Assembly (NCBI GenBank): GCA_035873375.1
Contig: JAYWMQ010000044.1
Coordinates: 1-44,697, forward strand
Direction of reading: 5' to 3'
Source of the DNA: Nitrospirota bacterium
GTDB lineage: Bacteria; Nitrospirota; Thermodesulfovibrionia; Thermodesulfovibrionales; JdFR-85
Length of the DNA stretch: 44,697 bases
Positions within the stretch are counted from its first letter, which is position 1. Each line of letters starts with the position of its first letter. The translations under genes and the position numbers were made by a program. The notes beneath the pieces were generated by a model. That model worked only from the letters and a program-made list of their open reading frames with translations. It did no database searches and had not been told where the DNA came from. Below, piece after piece: positions 2,533-44,697 of this stretch.

Positions 2533-2860
2533 GAAGCCCTAACAACAGCGTGGAGTTGAATGCAGACCAGTAGTGACTTTTTTAGGTAACAGCAGTTTAT
2601 CTGAGAACTTTCGGGACGTTGTTGTGTACTATGCAAAACTATTGACAGACAAGAAAATAAAACTGCAGGATTAAGCGGACAACGGAAGGGACATCCTGTT
2701 GACCTCGTTGTCTTCTTACTTTTCCTTGTTATTATCAGATACGGCAAAGGTAGAAACTCCTACTTGGCAAGCAACCTCTGCCACTGGGATACCATAATAA
2801 AAAATCTGTTTGACAGTAATCTATTCTATCTGATATTGTTAATCACACAATAATTGAAAG
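2533..2860. other. Gene-free stretch with a half attC-like site and a hairpin
   Basis: No convincing gene is seen. Just after mazF, GCCCTAACAAC (around 2536-2546) resembles the R'' end of an attC site, but no matching R' box was found. ACAACG (2679-2684) and CGTTGT (2706-2711) form the ends of a short hairpin. This may be decayed cassette or insertion-sequence DNA. Confidence 0.35.
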
Positions 2861-3064
2861 GAGGTGAACCGGATTGAATGCAGTCTTTGATGTCAGGATT
2901 TTCAAGACGGGTTTTGGCTGAGGTAATGTTAAAAACCTGGTCGAGGTTTTCCGGCTGACGGGACTGTGCTATCTGTTGTTCACGCTCTTTAATTACTCAC
3001 AGAACTTCTGATTTCCTCACACCTGTTATTCTCATCCTATATCTTCTGTCAGCCGGCAGAAAAA
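2861..3064 (+). ncRNA. Conserved structured leader RNA, copy A
   Basis: This segment is homologous to 44021-44238 at the far end of the window and, like it, lies upstream of a Sec-like tRNA sequence. Over the core to 2968 the copies are about 79 percent identical without a gap. A closing stem pairs CAGTCTT (2881-2887) with GGGACTG (2960-2966). In the other copy the same stem is CAGTTTC with GGAACTG, so a T-A pair is replaced by C-G. An inner stem pairs GACGGG (2906-2911) with CCTGGTC (2936-2942) and encloses the invariant TTTGGCTGAGG. A pyrimidine-rich tail ends at CAGCCGG. Its role is unknown. Confidence 0.6.
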
Positions 3065-3132: not shown

Positions 3133-3231
3133 GAGGGGTACTGAACCGGCTGTTACTCATGGTCTGCAAAAACCATAGATCAGGGCAGACAAAAACGTGC
3201 TGGCAGATTCGATTCCCCCTCCCCCTCTCCG
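3133..3231 (+). pseudogene. Decayed tRNA-Sec-like tRNA-Cys(GCA) copy
   Basis: The sequence aligns along its full length with the intact tRNA at 44398-44494. It keeps the acceptor 5' strand GAGGGGTA, the CTGCAAA anticodon loop with GCA, and TTCGATT in the T loop. The D stem has lost pairs, the anticodon loop has an extra A (8 nt), the T stem has three mismatches (GCAGA against CCCCC) and the terminal CCA is CCG. The product is unlikely to be a working tRNA. It is 99 nt against 97 for the intact copy. The upstream leader element is better preserved than the tRNA itself. Confidence 0.7.
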
Positions 3232-3258: not shown

Positions 3259-4263
3259 ATGAAAATAAAAACAATCATCCTGGCAATTCTTCTTTTACTG
3301 GTATCAGGTTTATCATATGCAAAGGATAGACAGGGTATCGTAACATTTAAGATAAACCTGAATGCCCAAAAGCGTTCAAACAATGCAAGGTTGTGGCTTC
3401 CATATCCACTTTCAGGGGAATATCAGAGGATTGAAAACTTAACGATTGAGGGCAACTTTGATAATTCATCGGTATATCGTGAGCCAAAAAGTGGAGCTAT
3501 CTATCACTTCAGCGAATGGCAGGGTGTTTCAGACGGTAAAAGACTGGTGATGAGTTTTAAGGTGAAGGCTGAAGAGAGAATTGTAAAGGATTTAAGGGAT
3601 ACAAATGACCCTGTGCCGGAAGAAGTAAAGAAGTATCTTAAATCGAACCGGTGGATACCAACAGATGGCAAGATAAAAGAACTTGCTGACAAAATAACAA
3701 AAGACGAAAAAGGCATCCTTGAGAAATCCAGAGCAGTCTATGACTGGGTTGTTGAAAATACACGCAGAGATCCGGGAGTAAAAGGATGCGGCCTCGGCAT
3801 AGTTGAGCAGATGATGATTAAGCGAGGGGGGAAATGTGTTGATATCAGTTCAATATATATTGCACTTGCAAGGGCTGCCGGTGTGCCTGCAAGGGAGGTA
3901 TTTGGCATCAGACTCGGTAAAAAAGCCGAGCAGGACATCACCGGGGGTTATCATTGCTGGGCAGAGTTCTTTCTGCCCGGGACTGGTTGGATACCGGTTG
4001 ATCCTGCTGATGTAAGAAAGATAATGTTAGTTGAAAACCTGAGTTTAAATGAAGCAGAAAAATACCGGGAATACTATTTTGGCGCAGTTGATGAGTTCCG
4101 GATCACTCTTGAGAGAAGTGGAAGGGGATTAAACCTTTTACCACTGCAGGAGAGTGGCCCATTGAATTATCTTATGTACCCTTATGCAGAAATAGATGGA
4201 AAACCTCTTGATTCTCTGGATCCGAAAAGTTTTAGTTACACTGTCACGTTTAAAGCTATTTGA
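3259..4263 (+). CDS. Exported transglutaminase-like cysteine protease-fold protein
   Basis: Residues 1-21 form a classical signal peptide (MKIKTIILAILLLLVSG, cleavage near SYA), placing the protein in the periplasm. A transglutaminase-like core follows. It has the catalytic triad visible as Cys193 (GGKCVDIS), His232 (GGYHCWAEF) and Asp248 (IPVDPAD). The region at 25-130 looks like a beta-rich domain preceding the core, and a helical linker around 130-170 contains the YDWV motif usual just upstream of the core. Such bacterial proteins are peptidases or amidases rather than cross-linkers; the substrate is unknown. The gene is alone on the plus strand, with a hairpin after the stop shared with the convergent RCC1 gene. 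Confidence 0.85.
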   Translation: MKIKTIILAILLLLVSGLSYAKDRQGIVTFKINLNAQKRSNNARLWLPYPLSGEYQRIENLTIEGNFDNSSVYREPKSGAIYHFSEWQGVSDGKRLVMSFKVKAEERIVKDLRDTNDPVPEEVKKYLKSNRWIPTDGKIKELADKITKDEKGILEKSRAVYDWVVENTRRDPGVKGCGLGIVEQMMIKRGGKCVDISSIYIALARAAGVPAREVFGIRLGKKAEQDITGGYHCWAEFFLPGTGWIPVDPADVRKIMLVENLSLNEAEKYREYYFGAVDEFRITLERSGRGLNLLPLQESGPLNYLMYPYAEIDGKPLDSLDPKSFSYTVTFKAI

Positions 4264-4308: not shown

Positions 4309-4346
4309 GCGCCCTCTGCGGTGAAAAAGAAAACCACAGAGGGCGC
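4309..4346. terminator. Hairpin between convergent genes
   Basis: GCGCCCTCTGCGG and CCACAGAGGGCGC form a long stem with one mismatch around an A-rich loop. It lies between the transglutaminase stop (4263) and the RCC1 gene stop (4363). There is no clear U tract, so it could also be a dispersed repeat. A close relative follows the second RCC1 gene at 5960-6000. Confidence 0.5.
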
Positions 4347-4362
4347 AAAGGCGGTAAGAGCG

Positions 4363-5574
4363 TTACGGAGTTACCGGCATCGGTGAGGTCGTGAGGTCGA
4401 ATACCTGAATGGGAGTAGTGGAGCAAGGCGCATAATAGCGGGGATTATCAACACATGCTTCAGATGTCGTGACACCCAACTGGTCAAAGATGTTACTTCC
4501 CCATGCCCACACAGTGCCATCCTTTTTAAGCGCAATAGTATGACTGCCTCCACCTGCGATGGCGGCAACATCAGTGAGTCCGGTAACCTGTAAAGGCGTG
4601 ATGGAGCAAGTAGGGCCAAGCTCACATCTTTCGGTTGTTTCCGATCCCAGCTGGCCGTAGTCGTTTCTTCCCCACGCCCATACAGTACCATCGCTTTTAA
4701 GCGCAACTGTATGCTCACCTCCGACAGCAATGGCGGCAACGTCCGTGAGTTCGTTTACCTGCACCGGCATGATGCTATATATCGTTGGCCCGTCTCCCAG
4801 CTGTCCATAGTTGTTGCTTCCCCATGTCCAAATCGTACCGTCGGATTTAAGCGCAATGGTATGAAAGCTTTTGGTAGCGATAGCAGTGACGTTTGTGAGG
4901 TCAATTACCTGCACAGGTGTGGAGCTGTCTGTTTTCGTTCCGTCTCCCAGTTGGCCAGTGTAGTTGGACCCCCATGCCCATACCGTGCCGTCAGTTTTAA
5001 GCGCTATGGTATGATAAATTCCGGCAGCAACAACGGCAACCTCAGCAAGGCCGTTTACCTGCACCGGCGTGATACTGTCTAACGTCGTCCCGTCACCCAG
5101 CTGACCGGATCTGTTATCTCCCCACGCCCATACTGTGCCGTCAGTTCTAAGCGCAACTGTATGAGCATCTCCGGCTGCAACGGAAACAATGGAACATGTA
5201 ACCGTTATATCGATTATGTCCGCGCCGTTTATTGTTCCGCTGCTATTATTAACGCTGCAAATCTGGCTATCCGGCTGGGTTAAAACCGTGACATCATAGG
5301 TCTCGCCATCGGCAAAAGTGGTAGAGAAAGTGAAATCACCGTTTGCCGTAATCTCAAGATCATCCCCACCGTTGTTTTGAAGAACAACCGTTTCACCATC
5401 GGCAAGCCCGCTTACTATGCCGCCCACGTTGTAAGAAACGCCGGAATAGTGATACTTATGATGTTCCCTTTTCATCTCCTTGGAACGCGCCTCTGCAACA
5501 CCGCCGACAATCCACAAACCGGCAAAAAGAAGAACAAACAGACCTATAAAAATATTGAACCAGGTTTTTCTCAT
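4363..5574 (-). CDS. RCC1-repeat exported protein with N-terminal Ig-like domain
   Basis: I start at the ATG giving MRKTWFNIF, which has an AAGGAAGAG site just upstream; an in-frame ATG nine codons earlier lacks one. The N-terminus is a signal sequence or anchor. Next comes a beta-sandwich-like segment (VGGIVSGLADGETVVL through TVLTQPDSQ, roughly residues 45-130). Five RCC1-type repeats follow, each with DGTVWAWG and GQLGDG motifs. Full RCC1 propellers have seven blades, so this one may be short. RCC1 folds mediate protein contacts; no enzyme activity is expected. It is a paralogue of the gene at 6012-8546 and shares upstream and downstream DNA with it. Role unknown, probably cell surface. 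Confidence 0.8.
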   Translation of the reverse strand: MRKTWFNIFIGLFVLLFAGLWIVGGVAEARSKEMKREHHKYHYSGVSYNVGGIVSGLADGETVVLQNNGGDDLEITANGDFTFSTTFADGETYDVTVLTQPDSQICSVNNSSGTINGADIIDITVTCSIVSVAAGDAHTVALRTDGTVWAWGDNRSGQLGDGTTLDSITPVQVNGLAEVAVVAAGIYHTIALKTDGTVWAWGSNYTGQLGDGTKTDSSTPVQVIDLTNVTAIATKSFHTIALKSDGTIWTWGSNNYGQLGDGPTIYSIMPVQVNELTDVAAIAVGGEHTVALKSDGTVWAWGRNDYGQLGSETTERCELGPTCSITPLQVTGLTDVAAIAGGGSHTIALKKDGTVWAWGSNIFDQLGVTTSEACVDNPRYYAPCSTTPIQVFDLTTSPMPVTP

Positions 5575-5618
5575 CTCGACTCTTCCTTGGATAAAGAACA
5601 TTTAATTACAGGTGTATA

Positions 5619-5700
5619 GACTAAAGGCTGACGCACAGCGCAGGCGCTTGCGCCGCGTGAGACTGTCAGGGAATTTTGATTTGATTAAAGCAAAGACTGT
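5619..5700. repeat. Upstream-region repeat shared by the two RCC1 genes (copy 1)
   Basis: This block (GCGCAGGCGCTTGC, then GCCGCGTGAGACTGTCAGGG and a TTTGATTTGATTAAAGC end) recurs nearly identically at 8610-8703. Each copy lies shortly upstream of an RCC1 gene in the same orientation. The duplication therefore included the presumed promoter region. Confidence 0.75.
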
Positions 5701-5853
5701 GTAAGAGTCCACTCCCGGTGGCGGAGGCTCCGCTTCCATGGATGTGTGTGTCATGGGGGTTGTGGAACCCGCCCCCACGATGATATCCGAATAAACATGC
5801 TTTCCCATGCGTACAATTTGCGAATAATTGTATGTCATATTATCTTCCCGTAG

Positions 5854-5879
5854 GGGCAGGTTCCAAACCTGCCCTTTTT
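5854..5879 (+). terminator. Perfect hairpin followed by T tract
   Basis: GGGCAGGTT and AACCTGCCC form a 9-bp stem with a 3-base loop, followed by TTTTT. The form is that of a Rho-independent terminator on the plus strand, but no gene points into it. It may be a dispersed repeat within the 5602-6011 intergenic stretch, which otherwise contains only the repeat at 5619-5700. Confidence 0.4.
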
Positions 5880-5959
5880 AATAAATTCCACCCATTTAAA
5901 AACCAGCACATAAGATTTATCCTCCAGCCTAAATACCTGACTTAAGGGCTTTCTTACCC

Positions 5960-6000
5960 TATACTCCCTCAGCGGTGAAGAAAACCACAGAGGGAGTATA
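5960..6000. terminator. Long hairpin downstream of the large RCC1 gene
   Basis: TATACTCCCTC (5960-5970) pairs with GAGGGAGTATA (5990-6000), and the inner GCGGTG nearly pairs with ACCAC around an A-rich loop. It begins 11 bases after the stop of the minus-strand RCC1 gene and resembles the hairpin at 4309-4346. Transcription termination is plausible; a U tract is absent. Confidence 0.5.
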
Positions 6001-6011
6001 GGCGGTAGGCG

Positions 6012-8546
6012 TTACGGAGTCACCAACACCTGTGCAGGTATTGCGCTACAATCGTACGTCTTGTGGCATTTTTCGGTTGTTTCAACCCCCAACTGTCCGA
6101 AATCATTTTTTCCCCACGCCCACACCGTGCCATCGATGTTAAGCGCGAGGGTATGACCATATCCGGCCGAGATGGCGGTTATGTCTGCAAGATCTCTTAC
6201 TTCTACCGGGATGCTGCTACTAATGCTTGAGGTTCCATTTCCCAGTTGGCCGAAAACGTTACTTCCCCAGACCCACACCGTACTGTCGGTTTTCAGCACG
6301 ACAATATATAGCGCCGATCTTCCTCCTTGCGAAATAGCAGTGACATCCGTTAAATCGGTCATTTCCACTGGTGTATTATTCCCCCATCCCCATCTCCAGA
6401 GTGTGCCATCGGTTTTAAGCGCGAAGGTAGTGCCTCTTCCTGCAAAAATGGCGGCAACGTCCGTGATGCCGATTACTTCTATTGGAGTAGTGCTGCAAGG
6501 AGTAGAATAGGTGCATGTTTCAGTCGTTGTTAGGCCCAGCTGACCGTCTCTATTATTTCCCCATGCCCACACCGTGCCATCCTTTTTAAGCGCCACGACA
6601 TGGCTTCCTCCTACTGAGATGTCGACAATGTCCGTAAGGCCGCTTACCTGCACCGGAGTGGTGGTGATATATGTTGTCGTCCCATTTCCCAGCTGGCCAT
6701 AGAGGTTTCCTCCCCATGCCCAAAGCGTACCATCGTCTTTAAGCGCGAAGGTATTCGAAGCACCTATGCCTCCTGTAGCAATGTCGACAACGTCTGTAAG
6801 GGCACTTATCTGTATCGGGACTGGGCTGTCTATCGTCGTTCCGTCTCCCAGCTGGCCGTATTTGTTATATCCCCACGCCCACACCGTGCCGTCGGTTTTA
6901 AGCGCAATGGAATGGCTCCCTCCGGCAGCGATAACAGCAATATTTTCTATGCCGGTTACCTCTACCGGGCTGGTACTACTTGTCGTAGTTCCGTCTCCCA
7001 GCTGACCAACACGGTTAGATCCCCATGCCCACACCGTGCCGTCGGTTTTAAGCGCAATGGAATGGCGCCCTCCGGCAGCGATGGCAACAACGTCCTTCAA
7101 TATGTCTACGCATTTAATCTGTATGTCCGTTACGTCTGCGGCGTTAATCCTCCCACTGGCAACGCTGCATTTCTGGTCGAATGGTTGAGTTAAAACTGTT
7201 ATATCGTAAATGTCCAGGTCCGTAAGCTCTGTAGCGAAAGTGAACGGACCGTTTGCCGTGATCGTGAGATCGTCTCCGTCGTTGTTTTGCAGTACCAGCG
7301 TATCGGTAAGACCACTCACACTGCCGCCAACGCTATAGGTGCCGGTTACTTTGCCTTCCCGTACCGGTATAGGCGTGAAACTGCAAGATATATCATCCTG
7401 AGCACCACATGTATCAGATGCCACTGCTCCTAATTGGTTGTTACTGTTACTTCCCCATGCCCACACTGTGCCATCGGTTTTAAGCGCGAGGGTATGGGAA
7501 TATCCGGCAGCGATGGCGGCAACGGCAGTAAGTCCGCTCACCTGCACAGGTATGGTGGAACAGTAAATAGAGGAATAAGAGCGGTCGCCGCCTGATGAAC
7601 AAACTTCAGTCGTTGTTACCCCCAACATGCCTGCACCGTTAGCTCCCCACGCCCACACCGTACCATCGGGTTTAAGCGCAAGGGAGAATCCCCATCCGGA
7701 CGCGATGGCATCAACGTCCGTGAGGTCGCTTACCTGTACAGGCGTGTAGCTGTCATCTGTCGTCCCGTCTCCCAATTCTCCGAAATTATTACGTCCCCAT
7801 GCCCACACCGTGCCGTCGGTTTTAAGCGCGAGGGTATGGGAATATCCGGCCGCAATGGCTGCGACGTCAGTAATGCTGGCCAGCTGGGGACTGTTAGTGT
7901 AGATACCTCCCCATGTCCACACTGTGCCGTCGGTTGTAAGAGCGTTGGTACGACGATCTCCGGCCGAGATGGCGGTTACATCCGTAAGCACAGGTTCCAG
8001 CTGATCAATTCCATTAATTTCCCACATCGTCCCATCGGTTTTAAGCACTATGGTAGAGGACCAGCCAGCCGCGATGGCGATTACGTCCGTAAGTCCGCTT
8101 ACCTGTATCGGAGTGGTGGAGCAAGGCAAATAGGAGAAGCATGTCTCAGATGTCGTGACACCCAGTTGGCCTTTTTCGTTAGATCCCCACGTCCAGACCG
8201 TGCCGTCGGTTTTAAGTGCAACGGAATGGAGATATCCGGCCGCGATGGCGGTTACGTCCGTAAGGCCGCTTACCTGTATCGGAGCCGGGCTGTCTATCGT
8301 TGTCCCGTCGCCAAGCTGGCCGTATTGGTTACCTCCCCACGCCCACACCGTGCCGTCTGATTTGAGCTCAAGGCTATGGGAACTTCCGCCGGCAATGGCA
8401 ACTATCTCCGTCTCATCCGCGCTGTCATGATCATGCTTGTGTTTCATACCCATTGACCCTATCTCTTCAGTGCAGCCGGCAATCCACAAACAGGCAAAAA
8501 GAAGAACAAACATACCCATAAACAAATTAAACCATCTTTTTCTCAT
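6012..8546 (-). CDS. RCC1-repeat lipoprotein, two seven-repeat blocks joined by an Ig-like domain
   Basis: The ATG is preceded by AAGGAGG. The N-terminus ends in a lipobox (LWIAGC, Cys25), so this 844-residue protein is probably an exported lipoprotein. I count seven RCC1-type repeats at about 45-395, then a beta-sandwich-like segment at about 400-480 ([17 protein letters not shown]), then seven more repeats at about 485-840. Seven is the blade number of an RCC1 propeller, so two full propellers joined by one domain are likely. Repeats 2, 6, 7, 11 and 14 carry insertions with paired Cys (TTSETC then PCST). The linker domain matches the N-terminal domain of the neighbouring paralogue at 4363-5574. 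Function unknown. Confidence 0.82.
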
Positions 8547-44005: not shown

Positions 44006-44020
44006 AGACAAACTAAAGAG

Positions 44021-44238
44021 GAGATGACCCAGATTGACTACAGTTTCTGATACCGGATTTTTCAAGACAGGCTTTGGCTGAGGAGAGGCCATAAACCTGG
44101 TCCAGGTTGTCCGGCTGACGGAACTGTGATCCCTGCTGCTCACTCTCTTTAAACCTTCACGCTGATTCTGTATTTTTTCACATCTGTCTTTACCCCCATC
44201 ACAGATATTGCTGCAACAATCCAGCAGCCGGGAAAAAC
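44021..44238 (+). ncRNA. Conserved structured leader RNA, copy B
   Basis: Homologous to 2861-3064. The closing stem is CAGTTTC (44041-44047) with GGAACTG (44120-44126), with exactly the same 79-base spacing as in copy A. The inner stem GACAGG (44066-44071) can pair with CCTGGTC (44096-44102), enclosing TTTGGCTGAGG. An alternative hairpin AACCTG-GTC-CAGGTT would compete with it, so two-state folding is conceivable. The element ends at CAGCAGCCGG. It is 160 bases upstream of the intact Sec-like tRNA, with dispersed hairpins between. No known riboswitch class fits fully. Confidence 0.6.
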
Positions 44239-44397: not shown

Positions 44398-44494
44398 GAG
44401 GGGTATGGAACTGGCTGTTCCATCTGGTCTGCAAAACCAGGATCAGGGCTAAAGAAAATGCCCTGGTGGGTTCGATTCCCACTACCCCTCTCCA
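44398..44494 (+). tRNA. tRNA-Sec-like tRNA-Cys(GCA) with 8/5 acceptor branch and long variable arm
   Basis: All arms pair. The acceptor is GAGGGGTA with TACCCCTC (8 bp). The D stem is TGGAAC with GTTCCA (6 bp possible) around TGGCT. The anticodon stem is CTGGT with ACCAG around CTGCAAA, giving anticodon GCA at 44431-44433. The variable arm is CAGGGC with GCCCTG, and the T arm GTGGG-TTCGATT-CCCAC (5 bp). The discriminator is U, followed by encoded CCA. The 13-bp acceptor branch, long D stem and long arm are hallmarks of bacterial tRNA-Sec. GCA and U73 are the identity elements for CysRS; tRNA-Sec has UCA and usually G73. Charging with Cys is therefore likely but unproven. Confidence 0.82.
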
Positions 44495-44697
44495 TATATT
44501 AAACCGGCAAATAAATACAGAATTTTTAGCTGGTTAAAAGTTTGTTGCACAAACAGAAAAAAAACGATATATGTCATTCTGAATTTATTTCAGAATCTCT
44601 AAGAATCGATGACTTATGAGACGCAGTCTGTTCGCCTTGCCAAGCCTGAAACAATACTGAAACAAGTTCAGCACATGGTTCAGAGCCTGCCCTGAAT
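44495..44697. other. Region after the tRNA, repeats only
   Basis: No clear terminator follows the tRNA. The hairpin repeat lies at 44567-44600, and the last 60 bases contain degenerate CTGAAAC/GTTCAG motifs. No gene is seen up to the window edge. Confidence 0.4.
44567..44600. repeat. Dispersed hairpin repeat, copy 2 (inverted)
   Basis: Exact reverse complement of 11490-11523 over 34 bases. Perfect identity at 33 kb distance points to recent spread or gene conversion. Confidence 0.7.

Follow-up and report, generated by a model that had tools for sequence, protein, structure and literature searches.

A Nitrospirota tRNA with tRNA-Sec architecture and cysteine identity, assigned from its sequence to the selC*/tRNA-ReC class

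The tRNA gene and its genome

The stretch of DNA analysed here (the window, 44,697 nucleotides) is the entire contig C44 of a Nitrospirota genome of 2.67 Mb, which is 99% complete and divided into 63 contigs. ARAGORN finds a single tRNA gene in the window, a tRNA-Cys(gca) at 44398-44494, and the single Rfam match is the tRNA-Sec model RF01852 (58.2 bits, gathering score 47, E 2.3e-9). A preliminary description had read this gene as a tRNA with tRNA-Sec architecture but cysteine identity and had suggested running a Sec covariance model; both programs and the complete pairing of all arms confirm the reading. The features of the window are collected in Table 1.

Table 1. Features of the tRNA gene and related elements in the window
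Feature	Position	Strand	Basis
Second, decayed copy of the tRNA gene	3133..3231	+	R1 35.7 bits; 78% identity to 44398-44494
Gene for a transglutaminase-core protein, next after the decayed copy	3259..4263	+	Pfam PF01841
tRNA-Cys(GCA) with tRNA-Sec architecture and encoded CCA, selC*/tRNA-ReC type	44398..44494	+	ARAGORN; RF01852 58.2 bits; R1 104.4 bits
Acceptor stem, 5' strand, 8 nt, partner 44483-44490	44398..44405	+	8/8 pairs; covariation in 6/8 pairs, 15 homologues
D arm, 6 bp and 5-nt loop; 5-bp core kept family-wide	44406..44422	+	Parsing script; covariation
Anticodon arm, loop CUGCAAA, GCA at 44431-44433	44424..44440	+	Hand reading, ARAGORN
Long variable arm, 6 bp	44444..44465	+	Hand reading, parsing script
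T arm, 5 bp without bulge; the tRNA-Sec of the same genome has an identical one	44466..44482	+	Hand reading; comparison; parsing script
U73 discriminator and encoded CCA	44491..44494	+	Both invariant in 27 sequences
Dispersed repeat copy of about 170 bp, starting 7 bases after the tRNA	44501..44671	+	Genome copies at 90-98% identity

Read by hand and by script, the stems contain zero mismatches: 8/8 pairs in the acceptor, 6 in the D arm, 5/5 in the anticodon stem, 6 in the variable stem and 5/5 in the T stem. The acceptor strands are GAGGGGTA (5') and TACCCCTC (3'), the latter followed by T and CCA. The D arm is TGGAAC-TGGCT-GTTCCA, with a single T after it; the anticodon arm is CTGGT-CTGCAAA-ACCAG, then GAT; the variable arm is CAGGGC-TAAAGAAAAT-GCCCTG, and the T arm is GTGGG-TTCGATT-CCCAC. 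With its 8/5 branch and a variable region of 25 nt (by script), the tRNA departs from the ordinary tRNA-Cys form, which has a 7/5 branch and a short variable loop; with GCA and U73, it departs from tRNA-Sec identity (UCA, Ser/Sec, G73). A scan for the sigma-70 consensus upstream of the gene found no promoter.

A genome lacking an ordinary tRNA-Cys(GCA) would, as the preliminary description pointed out, make this gene simply the main tRNA-Cys; the description also proposed an inventory of tRNA-Cys, selA, selB and selC. The ordinary 7/5 tRNA-Cys(GCA) is present as a separate gene at C4:25927 (L009), among 43 matches to the general tRNA model, and the true tRNA-Sec(UCA) lies at C61:21617 (L001; RF01852 73.5 bits). 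The genome also encodes SelA, one SelB and one CysRS. Its SelD has one in-frame TGA at the active-site position (KAAG-U-AGKLGPGD), and short hairpins are predicted after this TGA. A protein encoded in the window at 15308-16321 matches SelD weakly (98.9 bits, cut-off 125) and has no in-frame TGA; it is not the genome's SelD.

Compared with these two relatives in its own genome, the tRNA is a mosaic: the T arm is that of the tRNA-Sec, and the anticodon loop and inner stem are those of the tRNA-Cys. Nineteen consecutive bases, GGTGGGTTCGATTCCCACT, covering the whole T arm and its edges, are common to the tRNA and the tRNA-Sec. GGUCUGCAAAACC in the anticodon arm is the same as in the ordinary tRNA-Cys, with which GGTCTGCAAAACC is also held in common. 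At the acceptor-T junction, in bacterial tRNA-Sec the region that repels EF-Tu, the tRNA also agrees with the tRNA-Sec of its genome: A-U is the final acceptor pair in both, and G-C and U-A begin the T stem.

The decayed second copy keeps the GCA loop, has an extra A after the anticodon and is broken in the T stem and CCA; an intact close relative of it is found in MAG SZUA-77 (L170). In several relatives, the family of the transglutaminase-core gene that follows the decayed copy is found directly upstream of the intact tRNA gene. Since positions 2859-3026 also resemble 44019-44187 (75% identical), a larger segment was probably duplicated.

The 29-bp core motif of the dispersed repeat has 11 copies genome-wide vs 0 for a reversed control, and selC and the tRNA described here are each followed directly on the 3' side by a copy of the repeat. 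A hairpin 3' of both genes, considered as a shared selC-specific terminator, belongs to this repeat. The contig ends inside or just beyond the repeat, which is probably the cause of its end.

Conservation and relation to known classes

Relatives were searched with RF01852, and loci were fetched from its second tier of matches. GCA, U73, CCA and an unbulged 5-bp T stem are found in all 27 parsed sequences (the window's and 26 from relatives); all eight acceptor pairs form in 24 of these, with seven in L104 and L108 and six in L112. All arms are kept in 15 aligned homologues, with compensatory changes (two-sided and pair-keeping) in 17 of 30 pairs. In L114, L103 and their relatives, variable regions reach up to 55 nt, and the whole tRNA is about 119-132 nt long.

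A covariance model, R1, was built from aligned members of the selC*-type tRNA. Its scores are 69-105 bits for selC*-type tRNAs, 48-60 bits for true selC and no more than 34 bits for other tRNAs. Across 396 sampled genomes of the phylum, R1 gives 67 matches of at least 69 bits, spread over 63 genomes and all belonging to the window's class; no match falls between 60.4 and 69 bits. The kept arms, the compensatory changes and the separation of classes by R1 argue against a chance fold; the tRNA is real, conserved and, judged from its pattern of change, functional.

Among the 63 carriers, true selC is found in 57 and SelB in 59; SelB is present in almost every genome of the order, so the latter count does not show dependence by contrast. 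SelD with UGA is found in 28 of the 31 carriers tested. The six carriers in which true selC was not detected (G023, G047, G154, G247, G276, G364) were considered as readers of UGA as cysteine only. SelA is present in each of the six, which makes missed genes or gaps in the assembly the likelier explanation. G023 and G035 are nearly complete and have SelA and SelB while true selC is not detectable; G023 has the Cys version alone. G046 (99% complete) and G234 (96%) carry selC and selC* (two copies in G234) and a UGA-containing selD, with no match to SelA or SelB.

The tRNA-Sec-like tRNA-Cys(GCA) of Desulfotomaculum nigrificans is of the tRNA-ReC type (Vargas-Rodriguez et al. 2018, RNA Biol). It shares with the Nitrospirota form the GCA anticodon, the tRNA-Sec-like body, cysteine identity and coexistence with true tRNA-Sec and tRNA-Cys; it differs in coming from another phylum.

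The selC* tRNA-Cys are known from Firmicutes, Thermodesulfobacteria, Nitrospirae and Proteobacteria, and in some deltaproteobacteria have selB* and cysS* as partners (PMC7609411). Their hallmarks, as reviewed, are U73, GCA or UCA, and a modified 8/4 branch with an unpaired A51a bulge (Mukai et al. 2017, NAR, via the review PMC7609411). The Nitrospirota tRNAs resemble them in U73, GCA, a tRNA-Sec-like fold and, in some lineages, a second selB downstream. Unlike the described bulged 8/4 form, they are unbulged 8/5 in 27 of 27 sequences, and the selB duplication found here belongs to a Nitrospirota family and clades with that family's SelB.

Owing to its unbulged GTGGG/CCCAC T stem, the tRNA is filed as a selC* variant and not as the described bulged form. 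On sequence grounds, it is a Nitrospirota variant of the already named selC*/tRNA-ReC class and no singular oddity. The kinship first suggested, with minor Cys tRNAs reported by the Soell group and described as 8/4, is borne out (PMC7609411).

Two other tRNA types are close in form. Bacterial tRNA-Sec has the same 8/5 branch, long D stem and long variable arm, and the T arm is that of the genome's own selC; in contrast to the tRNA described here, it has UCA, G73, seryl identity and another gene neighbourhood. The allo-tRNAs (8/4 or 9/3 Ser-type, PMC7609411) share a non-canonical branch and a long variable arm; they have Ser identity and a 12-bp branch, whereas the present tRNA has Cys identity and a 13-bp branch.

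A pattern scan of named genomes, which includes chance matches and gives examples rather than a census, has among the matches listed the bulged 8/4 form in Desulfacinum (L169/L174, GGAGG/CCCC). Some Firmicutes among the matches listed have 8/5 or bulged 8/5 forms, and the Nitrospirota among them show the clean 8/5 form, as read from their sequences. In a Chloroflexota MAG (L220:2979-3619), a selC*-like tRNA-Cys(GCA) is directly followed by yedF; Chloroflexota is not among the phyla with selC* in the reviews used.

Gene neighbourhood and duplicated selB

Downstream of the tRNA, about 200 bp remain before the contig ends, so the neighbourhood was read from relatives. At 48 selC*-type loci, surveyed out to 1.5 kb, the genes found are LysR_Sec_metab (NF040786; 12 genomes), yedF (11 genomes), split-Soret cytochrome c / C_GCAxxG_C_C protein (8 genomes) and transglutaminase-core protein (7 genomes). 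These neighbours are mostly on the same strand as the tRNA gene and often only a few bases away. At 30 true selC loci, none of yedF, LysR_Sec_metab, split-Soret, transglutaminase-core or downstream SelB genes is found.

In one family (f10), a second selB gene (selB*) starts some 20-45 bp after the tRNA at six loci in five genomes. In G055, Se_S_carrier, yedF and an aminotransferase class V gene face or neighbour selB*; in G294, selD(UGA), Se_S_carrier and yedF do so. The six SelB* proteins form one clade (95/93) nested with the SelB of f10 and apart from the sampled deltaproteobacterial ones, so that the duplication looks independent. SelB* retains the C-terminal winged-helix region, except for the G296b copy, which is cut short. 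Loss of Sec-pocket segments was expected in SelB*; the IDR and AGQR segments, which we take to line the Sec pocket, are kept. PMC4150793, searched for the usual residue numbers of these segments, makes no mention of them.

Four carriers (G055, G204, G294, G042) encode a short second CysRS-like protein without the anticodon-binding domain (L306:4361-5602, L307:4510-5772, L308:4245-5531 and L309 about 4325-6193). It matches TIGR00435 at 321.7 bits (cut-off 340) and MshC more weakly. In three of the four, the translations place it near ribD-like and phosphoglucomutase-like genes. It was rejected as a CysRS*, being absent from this genome and from most tested carriers and unlinked to the tRNA.

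Proposed function and alternatives

The tRNA is probably charged by CysRS and delivered by SelB to UGA/SECIS sites, as a low-selenium fallback of the selC*/tRNA-ReC kind. U73 and GCA are Cys identity elements, through which the cell's CysRS would charge it with cysteine. The 13-bp acceptor-T branch would bar EF-Tu and make the tRNA a substrate of SelB. SelB, which in one family is duplicated and encoded right after the tRNA, would bring the Cys-tRNA to SECIS-marked UGA codons, and GCA would read UGA via a third-position mismatch. Cys versions of selenoproteins would result, with Cys in place of Sec when selenium is short.

SelD may be the most rewarding target, letting selenophosphate synthesis restart after selenium starvation. 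As SelD is itself a UGA selenoprotein, a starved cell without a fallback would be unable to produce the enzyme needed to begin using selenium; the presence of UGA in the SelD of nearly all tested carriers suggests why a fallback would pay. For the Nitrospirota members, we infer that the tRNA is charged with cysteine, is delivered by SelB, decodes UGA and serves when selenium is low.

The nearest reported case points the same way. According to the review PMC11415595 (citing Vargas-Rodriguez 2018), the Desulfotomaculum nigrificans GCA member is delivered by SelB, does not interact with EF-Tu and recodes UGA as Cys. For the Desulfobacterales system, a review names scarcity of selenium as the circumstance proposed for its use (PMC9437257). 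By analogy with the D. nigrificans member, the earlier suggestions of failure in normal EF-Tu use or of delivery by SelB were probably right in direction. Counting against UGA recoding, GCA cannot pair normally with UGA, the sigma-70 consensus scan shows no promoter upstream, and most carriers, including this genome, have a single SelB, which would need to handle both the Sec and the Cys form.

A more specific version of this reading is tentative, and its details may well not all hold. In Thermodesulfovibrionales-type bacteria, it has an unbulged 8/5 Cys-tRNA(GCA), linked to LysR_Sec_metab/yedF, that would natively read SECIS-marked UGA by a planned mismatch. Cys forms of selenoproteins, above all SelD, would let selenium metabolism restart from zero, and one family would have evolved a dedicated SelB.

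The preliminary description had offered SelB delivery to UGC/UGU codons as one possibility. In this alternative, SelB brings the Cys-tRNA to UGU/UGC before SECIS-like hairpins, bypassing EF-Tu, as a regulatory or pausing device. In its favour, none of the 27 inspected sequences departs from the UGY-pairing GCA, and SelB* mostly retains its C-terminal winged-helix region; against it, the same genome's ordinary tRNA-Cys already reads UGU/UGC. The route reported from experiment for a GCA relative (PMC11415595) is insertion of Cys at UGA, which leaves delivery to UGC/UGU less well supported and, on balance, unlikely.

It is still less likely that the Cys-tRNA has a non-translational role, as a cysteine donor or as a sensor controlling selenium/sulfur genes such as yedF and LysR_Sec_metab. 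Such a role could account for the close association with yedF, LysR_Sec_metab and split-Soret cytochrome genes, most of them on the strand of the tRNA, and for the Se_S_carrier genes nearby in two genomes and the aminotransferase class V gene in one. However, the partner gene in one Nitrospirota family and in deltaproteobacteria is that of an elongation factor, selB, and the 13-bp branch, which is what matters to SelB, is kept throughout. Nothing found favours a purely non-translational role, which had also been raised at the outset; the selenium genes and the duplicated selB linked to the tRNA point to recoding.

Conversion by SelA of the tRNA-bound Cys into Sec, which would place Sec at UGY codons, is very improbable. 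In its favour, the tRNA is like tRNA-Sec, a SelA substrate, in its long D arm and 13-bp branch; SelA is present; and Aeromonas salmonicida is reported to place Sec at UGC via a tRNA-Sec(GCA). U73 and Cys identity speak against seryl charging, and SelA is known with Ser-tRNA as its substrate; nothing here supports Cys in that role. Equally improbable is a functionless selfish or decaying selC duplicate: the decayed second copy and the dispersed repeat beside the intact gene would suit it, but it is opposed by compensatory changes in 17 of 30 pairs and by the invariance of GCA, U73 and CCA over many families.

Cys recoding of SECIS-marked UGA is thus the preferred reading. The selC*/tRNA-ReC kind is already known and was reported earlier from Nitrospirae. 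As far as checked, the new points are these: Nitrospirota have, as a rule, the unbulged 8/5 form; its genes, in clean contrast to selC, have selenium genes as neighbours; selB appears to have been duplicated independently in Nitrospirota; and there is a link to SelD.

If the preferred reading is true, one UGA codon would mean Sec or Cys according to selenium supply, by way of a tRNA with a non-matching anticodon. Its selenium-gene neighbours place the class in a physiological context, with LysR_Sec_metab as a candidate regulator and SelD as a biologically sensible candidate target. That selB was duplicated separately in Nitrospirota suggests more than one origin of the Cys/Sec split at the level of the elongation factor.
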